A stretch of 32,309 nt of DNA from Bdellovibrionales bacterium (GTDB lineage: Bacteria; Bdellovibrionota; Bdellovibrionia; Bdellovibrionales; UBA1609). Location of the stretch: positions 1-32,309 of the forward strand of contig JAHBUX010000024.1 in the NCBI GenBank assembly GCA_019637855.1, in the 5' to 3' direction. The notes under the pieces are model-generated. The model made no database searches. It had not been told where the DNA came from and saw nothing but the letters and a program-made list of their open reading frames with translations. Shown one piece after another: positions 10,539 through 27,900 of this stretch (the first letter of the stretch is position 1; each line of letters opens with the position of its first letter). The position numbers and the translations under genes were made by a program.

Positions 10539-11660
10539 TTAAGTTGCTTCAGCCGCGCGTACGACCTTCGGGTCGAACAGATCGTGCATATGCGGCTGCT
10601 TGAACGGCGAGGTACCCGCCACCTTGAGCCAAGTTTCCGGGCTTTCCATACACATAAACAGGCGCCAAGCGGGATTGTGTGCATGAAAGCGCTGCAAAAC
10701 AAATTGAAACATCTCTTGGCGAACAGCCGCATCGTAGCGCAACTTTCCATCGCGACCGCTGAACGTCTCGGCCTGCGTGACATAAGAATTCAAGCCAAAG
10801 CGCTCACGCATCATCGCGCGCTGCTCAGGCTGGAAGCGCAAAGCGCCAACGGACATATAGGGCAACTGCTCGGGCGTAAAGCGCGCCGCAATCTCGTCGA
10901 CCAAGGCGCCGTAGTTCTCACGCCACTCGGGATGCCAGATCATCGGGTCGATATGGAAGGCCAAGCGATAGCCGTGGCCCACGCACTTATGAGCGGCTTC
11001 AAGACGTTCGCTTAAAGAGGCAGTGCCGTGTTCTTCGCGTTCAACTATGTGCTGCGGATTCACTGACCAACTCACCACCACATTGCCCGCGTGAGGGCTA
11101 TTCAGAAACTGATCGACCTTGTTGGACTTGGTTTTGAATTCCAGCGTCCAAGCCGGGTAGTCACGGAAGAACTCAATCAAAGTTTGGGAATACAAAGTGA
11201 GTGGATCTAGACTCAAAGAGTCTACAGTTTCACCGGTCCCCACACGCAGAGCTTGAGCTTTCAGTCCGGCCTCGCCAATCTCACGCAACTCGTTCAAAGC
11301 GTCATCGAGATTTGAATAGATGGTCAGCATCGGCGTATTGATAAAGCTCTGCAGATAACAGTACGAGCAATTCATATCGCACTGAAGCCCCCAGTTGAGC
11401 ACAAAGTAATTGCAACAGCTCAATCCAGGGCGTGAGCCAGGGCAGCGTTTAAAGAATTTGCCTTTAAACGGCGTCACATAAAGCAAGCGTTTGCTGCGCG
11501 AAAATTCGCGGGCCGAAAGTTCGCCGGCAGCGAGCGGCGGCGCTTCGACGACGGAAACGCGATCGTCAGGAAACAACTCGCGTAGGCGCCGCGCCAGCGA
11601 AGAACCCACCGCCGTCTGATCGATATACACATGCTCAAATTTAGCGACTAGCTCTTGCAT
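10539..11660 (-). CDS. Spore photoproduct lyase-like radical SAM protein
   Basis: The 373-residue protein has the radical SAM cluster motif Cys94-x3-Cys98-x2-Cys101 in LQCDMNCSYCYLQSF, including the CYLQ that is characteristic of the SplB family. Residues 60-90 (VTPFKGKFFKRCPG, CCNYFVLNWG) also match the family. SplB repairs the spore photoproduct thymine dimer using a conserved cysteine (about residue 140). Here the corresponding place reads VGTGETVDSLSLDPLT (140-155) with no cysteine, so canonical repair is doubtful. Splicing of the family name to non-sporeformers is known. The gene overlaps the next upstream gene by 13 nt and is followed by a small exported protein. Likely role: an SAM-radical reaction on an unknown substrate. 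Confidence 0.82.
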   Translation of the reverse strand: MQELVAKFEHVYIDQTAVGSSLARRLRELFPDDRVSVVEAPPLAAGELSAREFSRSKRLLYVTPFKGKFFKRCPGSRPGLSCCNYFVLNWGLQCDMNCSYCYLQSFINTPMLTIYSNLDDALNELREIGEAGLKAQALRVGTGETVDSLSLDPLTLYSQTLIEFFRDYPAWTLEFKTKSNKVDQFLNSPHAGNVVVSWSVNPQHIVEREEHGTASLSERLEAAHKCVGHGYRLAFHIDPMIWHPEWRENYGALVDEIAARFTPEQLPYMSVGALRFQPEQRAMMRERFGLNSYVTQAETFSGRDGKLRYDAAVRQEMFQFVLQRFHAHNPAWRLFMCMESPETWLKVAGTSPFKQPHMHDLFDPKVVRAAEAT

Positions 11661-21471: not shown

Positions 21472-22944
21472 CTAACGACCGCAACCTTTGATCGCTCTTT
21501 TGCTGCAATAGTTCTTGTAGGCCGTCGCGCCGATGGAAAAAATCGACGGTCCGAAGGAGTTTGAGACGTCTTTTCCCGGATGGCCTTCGATCGCTTCGGC
21601 CGGCATGGGCTTTTTGGCGTCAAAACTTGCCGGATTAAAGGCGCCTGCGGATTCTCCGCTGCTGTCAGATCCGCCGTCACCGTCGTTTGTGCCGCCACCG
21701 CCACTACCAAAACCGCCTAGACTTCCTGCCTTTGTGGCGACTCCACGAGACACACCTTCACGAGTCCCATTAAGGCCGCTGGCAACCCCGCTGCCAGTGG
21801 CGCCGCTACCGCCGAAACTACCGCCGCCGGTGGAGGCGCCATAGCCCAACGTGCTGACCGCGGTGCTTGCGGATCTAGAGGCATCGGCGGCTTCAGACGC
21901 GGATTGGGGCGAGTAGCCAGTAGACACTTGTGCGTCAGTTCCGGCGGGTTTGCTGGCGGTCAAGAAAACGGGATCGGTCGGGCAGCTCTCGCGTGCGCGG
22001 TTTAACATCTCGGCCGAGTTCTCAGATAAGCAATTCACACCGGTGCAAGTGGACGCGGCATTGAGGCGCACGCAACTCGGGCATCCAGCGCGGCCGCTGG
22101 ATTGACAGAAGCGATAGGCCACAGCGTCTTGGCAGAAGGCCGAACCCAAACCTTCACCGCGTTTGTCGATCACCAAATTGGTTTTTGCCTGCACGGCACC
22201 ACTGTCGCTTACGGCGCTGGTGCTGTTCAAGGCGCAGTAGCGGTCGGCAAAGGCGATACAACGTGAGTCTCCCTGAGACGTTGCACAGCGCGCGACGTAG
22301 TCACCATTGCAGTCTGAAAACCTCTCCGAACCATTGGCTGAGCAATTCAAACTACTGCCGCTTTGAGCGGTCGTCGGCGTCGCCTCCGATGTCTGGTCGC
22401 CTTTGTCCTTCTGCTGTTGCTGCGGTGTTTGCATTGGAGCACCGGCCCCGTTTTGCGAGGCATCTTTCGTTTTGTTCGTGTCTTGTCCGTCTTGCGCCAG
22501 GTTGCCATCGGCCTGAGTGAGTCGTGTCAGTTCTGCATCGATGGGCTGTTCGCACTTGCTGCGTTTTACGCCGGGAATTTGCTGAGCCTCGCGTGCGGCC
22601 TGGGGGTTTTTGGCCGATGCAGCTTGCGCGCTCTTCTGTGCTTGATCACAACTTTGCGTACAGGACTTCTTGGCCGCGGCACAGGTGGTGCGGGCGTTGT
22701 TAATGGCCGAGCGTTGGGAGGCGATATCTCGTTGCAGCGAACCCGAGTTGGTATTGATGTTGGCACCGGAAGCGGCGCCGGTGGCGGCAGATCTGGCCGC
22801 ATCCGTAGAAGCCACGCCAGCCACTGCCCCTTTACATTGGGAGTCGGAGCTTTGCGCGGCACTTTGACATTGCGCTAAGTACTGGGCCTTGGCCGATATC
22901 GAAAGGCCAAGCAGGAGGATAAACACAAAAAGCCGGTCAACCAT
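21472..22944 (-). CDS. Secreted cysteine-rich low-complexity protein, 490 aa
   Basis: The signal peptide (LFVFILLLGLSISAKA) is cut before Q21. The mature part has 20 cysteines, an even number that would allow ten disulfides. Most lie in three blocks (about 25-145, 200-250 and 265-325). Block motifs such as YCALNS, FCQDAVAYRFCQSSG and RAGCPSCVRLN have no family I recognise. The first third and the last third are Ala/Ser/Gly/Gln rich; a stretch near 365-430 is glycine-rich and probably disordered. Ribosome binding site is weak (GAGAAG). It converges with tpiA and diverges from the haem operon, sharing the 297-bp region 22945-23241. Likely extracellular or periplasmic; no enzyme motif is seen. 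Confidence 0.75.
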   Translation of the reverse strand: MVDRLFVFILLLGLSISAKAQYLAQCQSAAQSSDSQCKGAVAGVASTDAARSAATGAASGANINTNSGSLQRDIASQRSAINNARTTCAAAKKSCTQSCDQAQKSAQAASAKNPQAAREAQQIPGVKRSKCEQPIDAELTRLTQADGNLAQDGQDTNKTKDASQNGAGAPMQTPQQQQKDKGDQTSEATPTTAQSGSSLNCSANGSERFSDCNGDYVARCATSQGDSRCIAFADRYCALNSTSAVSDSGAVQAKTNLVIDKRGEGLGSAFCQDAVAYRFCQSSGRAGCPSCVRLNAASTCTGVNCLSENSAEMLNRARESCPTDPVFLTASKPAGTDAQVSTGYSPQSASEAADASRSASTAVSTLGYGASTGGGSFGGSGATGSGVASGLNGTREGVSRGVATKAGSLGGFGSGGGGTNDGDGGSDSSGESAGAFNPASFDAKKPMPAEAIEGHPGKDVSNSFGPSIFSIGATAYKNYCSKRAIKGCGR

Positions 22945-23241
22945 ACCTATTGCTTCTCGCTGGCTAGACTCTGGACGAGTGATTAGTGGTAAATAAAAAC
23001 TGTCTCATTCTGATTGTCTCATATCGAATCAAAATGTCACGGTCACCACTCTTAAACGAGGCGAAGGATGAGGTGACCAGTAAATCGTCGAATTGTCGCG
23101 AATCCAGATGTGAAAAGCGCGAATTACTCTTAAGATGATTTTAGGGTGTTCGAAGTATTGAGTTAGTTAGCGGTACGTTTCTCTATCCTCACGTATGCGG
23201 GACAATTTCTGGGGTCAAAAAGTGGTTTGGGGGAACTGGAA
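22945..23241. promoter_or_regulatory. Divergent control region of the haem operon and the Cys-rich gene
   Basis: These 297 bp hold no credible gene. It is more AT-rich than the coding regions. TGTCTCAT occurs twice, at 23001-23008 and 23015-23022 (14 bp between starts), and TAAGAT at 23131-23136 is a weak -10 candidate for the operon. No clear -35 or terminator was found. GGGGGAA at 23229-23235 is the ribosome binding site for the next gene. Confidence 0.4.
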
Positions 23242-24549
23242 ATGAAAGCTGTTGTCGCACTGCTGTGCATTTTTTCCGCCGCGCAGTCCTTCGCGCAAGA
23301 TAGATCTCCACAAGATGAAGCCCTTTGGATCCTGAATCGCCTGACTGGCGTTCGCAATCCGGCTGATTCACCAGTCGCCGCGCAAATGGCGACGTTGATC
23401 ACTAATGGTGATAAAAAAGGCGCCGCCGCTCTGGCCACGCAACAGCCGCAGTTTCTAAGTGTCACCGTCAAAGAGATGGCCGCGCAAATGTCCACCCGCG
23501 AAGAGACGGTGGCTATCCCGTTGAACGATTTCGCTGCCGGCATTATCGGCGTGACTCGCGATGAGTCCGATGCGCGTGAGCTCCTACATGGCAATTTCTA
23601 TTATACCGCTGACCCTGCGAAGATCGCTGCGGTCACGCCGGTGATTCCCAACAATCTGCTCACCGATATTTTATTGAGCAACTTGCATTACAATGCTCTC
23701 GAGCGTTCAAACCTCGATGTGGGCGCGACTTTGCTTCGCGTAGAAGGTCAGCAGATTCCCACCAGCGCCACCACGTCGATCGCCAATCCGGACCCGGCGG
23801 GGATTCTCACCTCACATGCGTTCTTAGCGGCGCATGCTGTAGCCGGAACCAATCGTCGTTTGGTCGAATACACCTTCCGCGAATTCATGTGCACCGAGAT
23901 GATCGGTATGGCCGATACGGGGGCGCCGGATGTACGCATCGGTCGGGATATCGAGCGCTCTCCTGGTGGCGATCCGCTGAAGTTCCAAGCGAACTGCAAG
24001 GGCTGTCACACGGTTATGGACGGCTTTCGCGGCGCTTTCTCGAAGTGGGACTATGTTCCGACTTTGAGCAATGCCGCACAAACGCCCGGTGGCGCCATCT
24101 ATGTGGGTAACGGCGTTACCGCTGGCAACTTCCAACCGCGTATCGATAACAATGCCAATGACAATGCGGCTGGAGTGATGTTCAAAATGAATCGCCCGGA
24201 CTTTGTTCAGTACAGTGGCGGCTACATCCTGCGTGACGATTCTTTTATCAACAACGCGGTCCGCGGCGTGAACGCCACTCGTTTCGGCTGGCGCGGTTTG
24301 GCGCCGGACTCTTCGCCATTAGCGAGCGCGACCGGCGGCGTTCACACCTTTGGCCGCTTGATCGCCAACTCGGCACAGTTCAGCCGCTGCTTCGCCAAAC
24401 GTGTATTTGACCAAATCTGTAAACATGATTTGAGTGACAGTGACAAAGACGCACTCTTTGCCAGCCTCGGTATGGAGTTCGAGCAGAACTCCTACAATCT
24501 CAAAAAACTCTTTCAGGCCGTCGCGGTTCACCCGCGCTGCCGGTTGTAG
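23242..24549 (+). CDS. Exported mono-haem protein with DUF1588/DUF1585-like segments
   Basis: I chose ATG 23242 because GGGGGAA precedes it and the signal peptide (KAVVALLCIFSAAQSFAQ) begins there; TTG 23227 is in frame but unsupported. The 435-residue product has a single c-type haem site, CKGCH at 252-256, in NCKGCHTVMDGFRGAFSKWD. That resembles the 'CxxCH...DPxGxxxExFD' block of DUF1588. The end (FGRLIANSAQFSRCFAKRVFD, then KKLFQAVAVHPRC) resembles DUF1585. Such domains are known from DUF1592-type proteins of planctomycetes and myxobacteria. This version is short and lacks an obvious DUF1587/1592. Four further cysteines follow or precede the haem. It opens a four-gene unit. Function is not known. 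Confidence 0.75.
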   Translation: MKAVVALLCIFSAAQSFAQDRSPQDEALWILNRLTGVRNPADSPVAAQMATLITNGDKKGAAALATQQPQFLSVTVKEMAAQMSTREETVAIPLNDFAAGIIGVTRDESDARELLHGNFYYTADPAKIAAVTPVIPNNLLTDILLSNLHYNALERSNLDVGATLLRVEGQQIPTSATTSIANPDPAGILTSHAFLAAHAVAGTNRRLVEYTFREFMCTEMIGMADTGAPDVRIGRDIERSPGGDPLKFQANCKGCHTVMDGFRGAFSKWDYVPTLSNAAQTPGGAIYVGNGVTAGNFQPRIDNNANDNAAGVMFKMNRPDFVQYSGGYILRDDSFINNAVRGVNATRFGWRGLAPDSSPLASATGGVHTFGRLIANSAQFSRCFAKRVFDQICKHDLSDSDKDALFASLGMEFEQNSYNLKKLFQAVAVHPRCRL

Positions 24550-24560
24550 GAGGGCGGGTT

Positions 24561-25211
24561 ATGAAGAAGCTCAATATGAAATGGAAACGCATTTCGCTGA
24601 TCCTGGCCGCGATGGCGGGACTTTCGACTCTGAGTTTTAACTGTGCGCCGAGCATGTTCCAGGCGCCGAAAGGTCATGGCTTTTCATTCAGCTCTTTTGA
24701 TGTGTTTGCGGCTCCTAAGGTCTCGCCGTACTCGCTGATGACTTCGCGTCAAACTTATAAGACCTTTTTGAATGTGACCGGCCAAGAAGGCGCGGCCACG
24801 ACCGCACAGCAGAATGAATATGATCTGCGTTCGGCCACATTGGCCACGACCGATCGGTTGACCAACGTCAATGCGCCCTTGCAGATGGCCGCCACGTCTT
24901 TAGCGGGTGAAATGTGCAATGGCTTGCTGGCCAAAGAGATCGCACTACCGGCGGCCAGCCGTCGTTTCTTCGGACAAGTGGATTTCGCGCGTTCGGCGGC
25001 GCAGAACACGCCGGCCGCCTTTGATGCGGCGGTGGGAATGATGGCGACCTCCTTCTGGGGACGGGCTCCATCGTCGGAAGAAAGCAAGCTGCTCAATAGT
25101 TTCTATACGGAGTTCAGCGCGGGCGCGGGAACGGCCGCGGCGGGAACTCGCAATCTGTATCTCGCGGCATGCACGGGTATGTTGGCCGCGTTCGACACTT
25201 ACAATTATTAA
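24561..25211 (+). CDS. Lipoprotein of unknown function within the haem operon
   Basis: GGAGG stands 7 nt before the ATG. The N-terminus is basic (MKKLNMKWKR) with a hydrophobic stretch and the lipobox LSFNC, so Cys28 would be lipidated. The 216-residue chain has no CxxCH. After the lipid anchor comes a linker, then a helical, alanine-rich domain (about 70-216) containing SLAGEMCNGLLAKEIAL and 'FGQVDFARSA', then SFWGRAPSSEES and LYLAACTGMLAAFDTY. The motif APSSEESKLL resembles the 'R.PT..E...l' step seen in DUF1592-type helical proteins, so this may be a split-off helical part. It lies 11 bp after the mono-haem gene. Confidence 0.68.
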   Translation: MKKLNMKWKRISLILAAMAGLSTLSFNCAPSMFQAPKGHGFSFSSFDVFAAPKVSPYSLMTSRQTYKTFLNVTGQEGAATTAQQNEYDLRSATLATTDRLTNVNAPLQMAATSLAGEMCNGLLAKEIALPAASRRFFGQVDFARSAAQNTPAAFDAAVGMMATSFWGRAPSSEESKLLNSFYTEFSAGAGTAAAGTRNLYLAACTGMLAAFDTYNY

Positions 25212-25234
25212 GATGAAGGCTGTTGGGGGAATAA

Positions 25235-26647
25235 ATGGGTAAGGTTGTTAAAAAAGAAATGCCGATGTGGGCGAAGACTGGACACAGCAAACCTGTCTCG
25301 CGCCGTGAGTTTCTCGCTTCCGGTTTGCTGCCCTTCGCGGTTTCGGCCTTTGTGCCCGGGGCCCTGGGGTTGTTGGGAACACCGTTTGGTGCCCATGCCG
25401 CCACCAATTGCCCGACCAGTTCAGGAATTTTACCTTCGTTTATCACATTAAATCTTGCCGGTGGCGCCGGTTTGAACGCCAACTTCTTACCGCGCGATGC
25501 GGGCAATCAACTGCTGCCTTCTTATAGCAAGATCGGTGGTGGGACGGCGGCCAACCTGGTCACCAACAACACGGTGATGCCGTGGAATGGAATGGGGCCA
25601 TTTCTGCAAGGCTCGGGTTTTTTGAACGGCCTGCAAGCCGGAGCCCCCACAGCGCTCGCCAACACTTCGGTGATCGGCGTGTGTGTGCAGTCACGCGATG
25701 ATTCGTCAGAAAATCCGTTTGATGCTTCCGGGATGGTTTTTAAAGCGGGTTTAGTCGGCTCGATGTTGCCCAATATGGGAACAGAGAGAACTCCGAACGG
25801 CTTGAGCAATAAGTCAGCGGTGATTTCGCCACCTACGCCGTTGGTGGTGAGCAGCGTGACTTCGATTAACAACTCGATTGGTTACACCGCGGCTTTGCGC
25901 AATCTTTCGACAGCGCAAAAGGCTCAGATCTCGCGTCTGGTGTCTTCGCTCAGTACCGCGCAAGCGGCAAAGCTGAACTCATTGAGCAGCACTGCTCAAG
26001 TGCAAAACTTGATCGACTGCGCCGGATTGAAAAATAATGAGTTGATCGCGGCCGGCGGTGCACCAGCCTTGCCCGCGGCCCTTCAAACCGTGTGGGGCGT
26101 GAATGCCAATACAGCCGCCAACAATGAAGCCAATGTGTTTGCAAATATGGTGTATCACTCGTTGGCTGGAAATGGTGGCGTTGTGAATCTGCAGATGGGT
26201 GGCTACGACTACCACGATGGCTCGCGTAACACCGGCAACACCCGCGACACTGCGGCGGGTACGGCCGTGGGCCGCATTTTGGAGAGCGCCAAAGCGATGG
26301 GACAAAAAATATTTGTTTACGTGACGTCGGACGGTTCAGTGACCTCCAACGACAGTGCGAACCCGGGAGCCAACTGGGTGAGCGATCGCGGCACCGGCGG
26401 CTTAGCCTTGTTCTTTATGTTTGATCCGGCCGCGCGCCCGCAAACATCGGGCTTACAGATCGGCAATTTCACTAATGGTCAGGTGGCGAACGATAGCACT
26501 TTCGTAGGCTCGGATCCGGCGCAAGCGGCACAGGCCGTGTTTGCCAACTATATGAAGTTTGCCGGTCGTATGGATTTGTTCAATCGAGTCATTCCGACGA
26601 GCGCTCCGCTCAGCGGCGCGGTTTTAGAAGGCGTTTTAAGAGTCTAG
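25235..26647 (+). CDS. Tat-exported DUF1501-like protein
   Basis: The 470-residue protein has a twin-arginine signal, SRREFLASG (22-30), then a hydrophobic stretch ending GAHAA, so it should leave the cell folded. A GGGGG ribosome binding site precedes the ATG. The segment VVNLQMGGYDYHDGSRNTGN, followed by 'GRILESAKAMGQKIFVYVTSDGS', follows the 'GGWDxH ... vvvxSEFGR' layout of DUF1501 proteins, which are also Tat-dependent. The middle (about 220-270) is a serine/leucine-rich helical part. No CxxCH is present. In other genomes DUF1501/1552 proteins accompany DUF1592-like cytochromes, which fits its place here. Activity of the family is unproven. It lies 23 bp from each neighbour. Confidence 0.72.
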   Translation: MGKVVKKEMPMWAKTGHSKPVSRREFLASGLLPFAVSAFVPGALGLLGTPFGAHAATNCPTSSGILPSFITLNLAGGAGLNANFLPRDAGNQLLPSYSKIGGGTAANLVTNNTVMPWNGMGPFLQGSGFLNGLQAGAPTALANTSVIGVCVQSRDDSSENPFDASGMVFKAGLVGSMLPNMGTERTPNGLSNKSAVISPPTPLVVSSVTSINNSIGYTAALRNLSTAQKAQISRLVSSLSTAQAAKLNSLSSTAQVQNLIDCAGLKNNELIAAGGAPALPAALQTVWGVNANTAANNEANVFANMVYHSLAGNGGVVNLQMGGYDYHDGSRNTGNTRDTAAGTAVGRILESAKAMGQKIFVYVTSDGSVTSNDSANPGANWVSDRGTGGLALFFMFDPAARPQTSGLQIGNFTNGQVANDSTFVGSDPAQAAQAVFANYMKFAGRMDLFNRVIPTSAPLSGAVLEGVLRV

Positions 26648-26670
26648 GCTGTACGTAGGGAGTTCGTGCG

Positions 26671-27900
26671 ATGAGAAAAATCTTGCTCGGCATCGGGCTG
26701 GCGGCGTTGCTGGTGGTTTACCAGAACTGCAGTTTGGACGCCAAACACATGGGTGCGGCCTCGAACGATTTCAGCAGTTTCGGTAAGGCTTGTGACGCCA
26801 TTCTCAAGAACGCCTACATGTCCACCTATTACAATGTGTTTCGAAGCGGCGATGCCACTCGCAACTGTATTCCTTGTCATGCCTCCGGCGGCGAGGCGGG
26901 GCCTTCTCGTGCTTTTGCCAGCGCGGATTTTAACAAAGCTTTCGAAGCTTTCAGCACAACGGGACGCACCCGTGTGCAAGCCAATATGCTCAATCCCAAT
27001 CACAAGCCACCACACACCGGCGCGCAGAATCAGTCCGTAGTTGATGGTGCCAAAGCCGCTTGGGACGCGGCCGAAGCGGCAGCGCGTGCATGTAGTGGCA
27101 CGGGCGGTGAAGTGATAACGATCAACAAAGCCGCTCCGGCGAACGTGTACACCACCACTCCCGGTGACAATGCGGCGACAGCCTGGCCGCGGATCTCTTT
27201 TGATCTAGATACAGAGTTGGCGGATACCGACGCGCAAAACAAAGTGCATATGACCATCACTTTGGAAGTGCGGCGCTTTATGGACAACACGCGCCAGCCG
27301 CCGGCCGCGATCGGTTATCAGTTCCGTAACCCGACGGTGACAGTGAAGACAGCCAACGGCACCACGCCGACCTATCGGATCACAGGGCTTTCGATGAACT
27401 TGAATGGATCCAACTACACTTATATGACTGCCTATTCGTTGCTGGATGTGGTGGTGAATTCGACGACCGGTGTGAACATCGCGCCAGGGGCCGCATTTGC
27501 GGCAGCGCCGACGGCGAGTTTGAGTGTGGCTAACACAGATCAGTTCGCCTTCCGATTCACATCTATTTTGGACGCGGACGGGCAGCCGGTCACTCCCACT
27601 CCTGGAGGCGGGGGCGGTGGGGGCGGAGGAAATATTCCGACACGCGTGACCTTCGCCGATTTGAATTCCGCCAATCCTACGACCGGAGTGTTCTCACGCT
27701 CTTGCAACAACTGTCACAATGCCAACAACCGGCAGGGCAGTTTGGATCTCACCAACTATGCGGCGTCAGTGGCCGTAGCCAGTACCATTCGCAGCCGCAT
27801 GAACAATGCCGGGAATCCGATGCCTCCGGCCGGCCTTTTGAGCAACAACGATCGTGCGGTCGTGGATGTGTGGGTGAACGGTGGCGCGCCCCAGAACTGA
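26671..27900 (+). CDS. Di-haem c-type cytochrome lipoprotein with polyglycine hinge
   Basis: The 409-residue product starts with MRKILLGIGLAALLVVYQNC, a signal with lipobox VVYQNC, so Cys20 would be lipidated. Two haem c sites are present: CIPCH (66-70) and CNNCH (345-349). The second is followed by NPMPPAG (about 382-388), whose Met is the usual sixth ligand in class I cytochromes c. Between them lies a beta-rich domain (about 115-310) with TITLEVRRFMDNT and YRITGLSMNLNGSNYTYM, then a run of nine glycines. No clear methionine partner for the first haem was seen. It closes the four-gene unit. A role as electron carrier or receiver at the outer membrane is likely. Confidence 0.82.
   Translation: MRKILLGIGLAALLVVYQNCSLDAKHMGAASNDFSSFGKACDAILKNAYMSTYYNVFRSGDATRNCIPCHASGGEAGPSRAFASADFNKAFEAFSTTGRTRVQANMLNPNHKPPHTGAQNQSVVDGAKAAWDAAEAAARACSGTGGEVITINKAAPANVYTTTPGDNAATAWPRISFDLDTELADTDAQNKVHMTITLEVRRFMDNTRQPPAAIGYQFRNPTVTVKTANGTTPTYRITGLSMNLNGSNYTYMTAYSLLDVVVNSTTGVNIAPGAAFAAAPTASLSVANTDQFAFRFTSILDADGQPVTPTPGGGGGGGGGNIPTRVTFADLNSANPTTGVFSRSCNNCHNANNRQGSLDLTNYAASVAVASTIRSRMNNAGNPMPPAGLLSNNDRAVVDVWVNGGAPQN
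27604..27629 (+). repeat. G-rich tract encoding the polyglycine hinge
   Basis: Seven G-runs of two to five bases occur here, coding the glycine run between the two domains of the di-haem lipoprotein. Such a tract could fold into a G-quadruplex and is prone to slippage. Confidence 0.6.

Follow-up and report, generated by a model that had tools for sequence, protein, structure and literature searches.

A conserved four-gene envelope haem cluster of Bdellovibrionota with an apparently divided DUF1592-type protein and a predicted alkaline-phosphatase-fold partner

Some Verrucomicrobia and Planctomycetes frequently carry PSCyt/PSD genes together with their unknown-family neighbours, and published work describes them as having no known function (PMC5615132). 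In the same work, PSCyt genes adjoin two gene families of unknown role, CBMs such as LamG_3 are present, and sulfatases lie nearby (PMC5615132). Among the literature passages found, none gives a function for DUF1592 or DUF1552 proteins. The PSCyt3-type module consists of a DUF1587-DUF1595-DUF1592-DUF1588-DUF1585 lipoprotein and a DUF1552 Tat protein. Related pairs combine PSCyt2/PSD1 (DUF1549-DUF1553) or DUF1800 with DUF1501.

In this study, we analysed a window of 32,309 nucleotides from a Bdellovibrionales bacterium (contig JAHBUX010000024.1), whose genome also carries a PSCyt3-type module (G000:C1, L072). The window contains four genes, here called g1 to g4, with the following features:

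23242..24549, + strand: g1, 435 aa, exported mono-haem helical protein; PSD4-PSCyt3-PSD2-like, corresponding to the C-terminal part of a DUF1592-type protein
23995..24009, + strand: haem c motif CKGCH of g1, residues 252-256, invariant in 66 sequences
24337..24522, + strand: DUF1585 (PSD2)-like stretch of g1, residues 366-427, below the Pfam cut-off (18 vs 25.8 bits)
24561..25211, + strand: g2, 216 aa, helical lipoprotein; PSD3-PSD5-like, corresponding to the N-terminal part of a DUF1592-type protein
25235..26647, + strand: g3, 470 aa, Tat-exported, predicted alkaline-phosphatase-fold, DUF1501-like protein
25298..25315, + strand: Tat motif SRREFL of g3, seen in the sequence and the alignment
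26198..26215, + strand: GGYDYH motif of g3, residues 322-327; D325, Y326 and H327 invariant in 75 sequences
26327..26335, + strand: SDG of g3, residues 365-367; D366 and G367 invariant
26384..26386, + strand: D384 of g3, invariant
26671..27900, + strand: g4, 409 aa, di-haem lipoprotein with a middle domain, joined to g2 in gamma/delta relatives
26866..26880, + strand: haem c motif CIPCH of g4, residues 66-70, invariant in 26 sequences
27703..27717, + strand: second haem c motif CNNCH of g4, residues 345-349, in a C-terminal PF13442-like cytochrome domain

The cluster resembles the PSCyt3-type module in several respects: g2 and g1 are co-linear with its N- and C-terminal parts, the haem column is shared, a Tat-exported partner adjoins, and an envelope lipoprotein is present. 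In contrast to that module, it is split into genes in reversed order, its proteins fall below the Pfam cut-offs, it has an extra di-haem protein (g4), and the partner is DUF1501-like rather than DUF1552. The DUF1549-DUF1553 and DUF1800 pairs share with it a helical partner and a DUF1501-type Tat protein, but no window protein matched DUF1549, DUF1553 or DUF1800, and PF07583 and PF08811 had no match in the whole genome.

The original prediction described four genes on one strand at 23242-27900 with gaps of 11, 23 and 23 bp, and the open reading frames, all on the + strand, agree with it. The export signals that it listed (Sec, lipobox, Tat SRREFL, lipobox) are present on all four products, and its haem motifs, CKGCH in g1 and CIPCH plus CNNCH in g4, were found as described. 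The N-terminus of g1 is a Sec-type signal (MKAVVALLCIFSAAQSFAQ); an earlier TTG start is possible at 23227. The lipoboxes of g2 (..LSFNC28) and g4 (..VVYQNC20) both carry N at -1 and depart from the E. coli consensus, but they are credible because the lipobox Cys does not vary among 37 g2 sequences or among 26 g4 sequences. Likewise, the CxxCH of g1 and the first CxxCH of g4 are not chance occurrences, since they are invariant in 66 and 26 sequences, respectively. The Tat residues R23 and R24 of g3 are invariant in 75 sequences, and the same genome encodes TatC and a cytochrome c assembly protein. A scan for promoter-like and terminator-like signals stayed at chance level. Elsewhere in the window, a gene divergent to g1 (21472-22944, - strand) encodes a 490-aa exported, Cys-containing, Ser/Gly/Ala-rich protein without a Pfam match, and the product of 10539-11660 (- strand) belongs to the spore photoproduct lyase family (PF20903, E 4.7e-32), here in a lineage that does not form spores.

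To trace the cluster in relatives, we used mechanical ORFs as gene calls and took taxon names from record titles. A search with g3 gave matches in 32 of 59 relatives, and the ORF maps of the matched loci repeatedly showed g1-g2-g3-g4 on a single strand. The g3 family was present in 122 of the 291 Bdellovibrionota genomes. A scan of named genomes, with an alignment of a closer family subset as the query, found 80 loci. The original prediction had staked itself on conservation of the gene order in relatives, and the order was indeed kept in at least 34 full four-gene loci of Bdellovibrionota (24 of the plain form, 9 that have an additional g4, and 1 beside a second set without g2). This count excludes loci cut by contig ends as well as L119 and L134, where one g4 was automatically labelled as fused from weak g2 matches and the maps are of the split type. 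In the genome studied here the cluster occurs a second time (L032), with two g4 genes and a g1 of 766 aa. One locus from a record titled Streptomyces griseus MAG (CALQIT020000005.1, L126) has a cluster typical of Bdellovibrionota and falls among these in the g3 tree; the bin is probably mislabelled.

A three-gene form, g1-[g4::g2]-g3, was found in 32 loci of Gammaproteobacteria and some delta-type proteobacteria, including Alteromonas, Aestuariibacter, Aliiglaciecola, Steroidobacteraceae and Myxococcota. The genes are homologous and stand in the same order, but g4 and g2 are fused into a lipoprotein of about 820 aa, which has the haem stretch first, the g4 middle domain next and g2 last. LamG_3 lies between the haem stretch and the middle domain in both fused proteins scanned (n=2), and also occurs in some long g1 proteins. 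In a tree of 75 g3 proteins, rooted for drawing only and thus not proof of direction, the fused forms make up one starred clade, which holds 30 fused loci and 1 cut locus and is surrounded by split forms. The g4::g2 fusion is Rosetta-stone evidence that the parts act together. The system is widespread in Bdellovibrionota, Gammaproteobacteria and Myxococcota and not a local curiosity. The suggestion of an undescribed compact form did not hold up in this respect: the form is widespread, and it is compact only in being without the LamG domain that many relatives carry.

The flanks of these loci contain further recurrent genes. The three-gene clusters often stand beside a divergent lipoprotein with an HZS_alpha domain. 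In 19 gamma loci such a lipoprotein, about 890 aa long, is encoded on the upstream side of g1 (L187:72-2753, - strand, and homologues); the L187 protein matches the hydrazine synthase alpha middle domain (PF18582, E 3.9e-15). Near Bdellovibrionota clusters, three kinds of protein are encoded repeatedly at varying positions: a YceI-like protein, a small cytochrome c that is a lipoprotein, and an exported protein with a CxxCH motif (L130, L131, L145, L148, L156, L173 and L190, with some of them also at L114 and L179). An ExbD/TolR-like gene lies 3' of g3 in Myxococcota-type loci (L158:8516-8983, where the Pfam match is weak, and L169:7098-7622). In some gamma loci g3 is followed by TPR proteins and a thioredoxin-like gene, and 4 loci have an FG-GAP lipoprotein ahead of g1.

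To compare g1 and g2 with undivided proteins, we used a canonical set of 18 DUF1592-type proteins from the phylum, most of them with a DUF1552-type neighbour. The canonical protein of the same genome has the order CBB3 (45-101), PSD3 (126-189), PSD5 (209-270), PSD4 (281-408), PSCyt3 (426-521) and PSD2 (536-608). In profile-profile comparison with the set, g1 aligned strongly with residues 281-607 of 614 (prob 98.3, E 2.4e-14) and g2 moderately with residues 118-243 (prob 90.6, E 1.3e-6). The two stretches are co-linear and do not overlap, and the canonical domain order explains the partition into g2 and g1. Reversed and column-shuffled controls scored at most about 25; the corresponding scores were 107-119 for g1 and, with the lipobox region left out, 36-53 for g2. 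The g1 haem motif coincides with the PSCyt3 haem column. A profile of the mature canonical protein matched 42 of 44 g2 ORFs, and the best 14 matches all lay at positions 18-171, in the N-terminal third; the best single-sequence HMMER E for g2 was 4e-4. We also considered that the g2 match is an artefact of the lipobox, and rejected this, as the match weakens after trimming yet persists. Alignments of g2 with g1, and of g1 with DUF1552 or DUF1501, gave no support.

Thus, profile alignment supports the idea that g1 and g2 correspond to a split DUF1592-type protein, and the two parts stand in reversed gene order relative to the canonical protein. They are separate ORFs with their own stop codons and export signals, not a single polypeptide. 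The description of this protein as shortened was incorrect, since g1 and g2 comprise 435 and 216 aa, whereas a canonical protein, its own cytochrome domain included, has 614 aa. In Pfam searches, g1 did not reach the gathering scores of PF07624 (18 vs 25.8 bits) or PF07627 (15.2 vs 27), and PF07631 was not found in it, all three being families that the prediction had named for checking; two g1 relatives match PSCyt2 weakly. The search with g2 gave no Pfam match for DUF1592-type domains and nothing credible in Pfam or NCBIfam. Its invariant residues are Cys28, which is the lipid site, Cys119 and Cys204. The g1 model is confident (pLDDT 90), and Foldseek gave no convincing PDB relative, with nothing listed above Z 4.3. 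This lack is not evidence of a new fold, but it means that no mechanism can be borrowed for g1.

The assignment of g4 as a di-haem lipoprotein is supported by its two CxxCH motifs and the invariant lipobox Cys. Its C-terminus gave a cytochrome CBB3 match just below the Pfam cut-off. A near-invariant H111 follows the first CxxCH, and H238 is invariant in the fused g4::g2 proteins; a bis-His haem is plausible from these residues. g4 belongs to the same split, because g4 and g2 are one polypeptide in gamma- and delta-type relatives. The electron-carrier role that the prediction gave to g4 is putative. Alignment of g4 with the canonical DUF1592 protein found no support beyond the lipobox and haem.

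The AF2 model of g3 (pLDDT 82.6) is similar to the alkaline phosphatase (AP) superfamily, with a Foldseek E of 2.6e-4, a VIA Z of 12.0 and 437 chains at Z>=8. The match to 5ylc (Z 12.0) has an rmsd of 4.0 over 226 residues, and identity to the listed superfamily matches is about 7-14%. The fold of g3 is therefore predicted to be that of the AP superfamily, which includes sulfatase, NPP and MCR/EptA proteins. Sequence searches for solved structures of g3, DUF1552 or DUF1592 relatives returned none of relevance except small cytochromes. Across 75 sequences, the Tat RR, GG76-77, D156, D325-Y326-H327, D366-G367 and D384 are invariant, and D156, D325, H327, D366 and D384 are strictly conserved over 22-57% identity. 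By comparison with the superfamily, D325/H327 and D366 would sit where AP enzymes carry metal ligands. The first AP metal-ligand position after strand 1 presumably appears as GG in g3, not Asp, which leaves a D/H/D/D site, and the nucleophile position is variable. Normal AP catalysis by g3 seems doubtful, because GG apparently takes the place of the first ligand, and because S127, the candidate nucleophile, is conserved as Ser in no more than 63 of the 75 sequences.

As for g3 being a DUF1501-like partner, this part of the prediction stood in its features and faltered in its sequence match. The protein has a Tat signal, GG after strand 1, the pattern GG-[WFY]-D-x-H and the predicted AP-type fold. 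The similarity to DUF1501 by sequence is weak and limited to GGYDYH..SDG (prob 64-88) and the Tat/N-terminal strand-1 region. Pfam and NCBIfam gave nothing credible for g3. A PF07394 (DUF1501) search of g3 gave no match even at E 10, and the same search of the genome matched another gene only. PF07586 (DUF1552), also proposed for checking, gave no Pfam match to g3, and DUF1552 was rejected as a relative, as hhalign covers only residues 18-84 in the signal and first strand (prob 63). In the same genome, contig C1 carries a second system in which a g1-like mono-haem protein adjoins a true DUF1501 protein (L198:4326-7377). Another genome (L199:2532-6484) has a g1-like and a true DUF1501 protein, followed by a 233-aa lipoprotein weakly matching the canonical DUF1592 profile. 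These pairs fit a wider family of haem protein and DUF1501-type pairs.

To explain these observations, we propose that the four products would form one envelope complex. What is a single lipoprotein elsewhere, the DUF1592-type (PSCyt/PSD) haem protein, would here be present as three chains: g4, with a haem part and middle domain, lipid-anchored; g2, PSD3-PSD5-like and also lipid-anchored; and g1, PSD4-PSCyt3-PSD2-like and soluble, with one c-haem. These chains would assemble with g3, a folded, Tat-exported AP-superfamily protein with an altered metal site and candidate ligands D325, H327, D366 and D384. Electrons may pass via the haems between the cytochrome pool and a site in g3 or g1. The complex could act at the surface of the envelope by processing a glycan or similar ester, the substrate being a guess, and the LamG domains of relatives may be a targeting part. 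The idea of a surface glycan or ester draws on LamG_3 in relatives and on the PSCyt, CBM and sulfatase neighbourhoods described in PMC5615132. A search for functional data on any relative of the cluster found none. We give this whole reading, from divided haem protein to electron transfer and surface processing, about an even chance. The bolder proposal, in which an altered g3 metal site receives electrons from the split PSCyt scaffold and performs redox chemistry on a hydrolysis fold as a separate enzyme class, is fairly unlikely.

Other explanations share some of this evidence. If g3 were an ordinary metal-dependent envelope hydrolase of phospho- or sulfo-esters, the haem proteins would be a scaffold or docking platform without electron transfer. 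The predicted AP-superfamily fold with its conserved Asp/His fits this, and haem may merely stabilise small helical domains; however, the first Asp ligand is apparently missing, Ser127 is not invariant, and neither g1 nor the first g4 site shows any variation in its haem motif. Haem domains also recur across PSCyt systems (PMC5615132), and we regard this explanation as tentative and on the unlikely side. The altered active site could instead make g3 an AP-fold pseudoenzyme in a structural or sensory surface assembly, for example for LamG adhesion, rather than a catalyst. LamG domains in relatives and the FG-GAP lipoprotein ahead of g1 in 4 loci agree with such a role, but the strict conservation of D156, D325, H327, D366 and D384 at 22-57% identity points to a retained site, and haems are costly for a mere scaffold. 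We consider the pseudoenzyme unlikely.

A further alternative concerns the split itself: g1 might be an independent PSCyt3/PSD2 relative, and g2 a helical lipoprotein of unrelated origin, recruited into the cluster. The lack of a Pfam match for g2 and its moderate profile evidence would allow this. However, g1 and g2 cover the canonical protein co-linearly without overlap, the shuffled and reversed controls score far lower, and 42 of 44 g2 ORFs match the canonical profile, the best ones in the N-terminal region. The fused gamma proteins also keep the haem-then-PSD3/PSD5-like order, and this alternative is distinctly improbable.

Taken together, the cluster is conserved yet unstudied, with a planctomycete-type haem protein apparently cut into genes beside a partner of predicted AP fold. 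A naturally divided PSCyt/PSD version, together with fusions elsewhere, offers separately expressible parts with defined partners. Cultured strains of Alteromonas and Aestuariibacter carry the cluster, which makes it accessible to knockouts and pull-downs.
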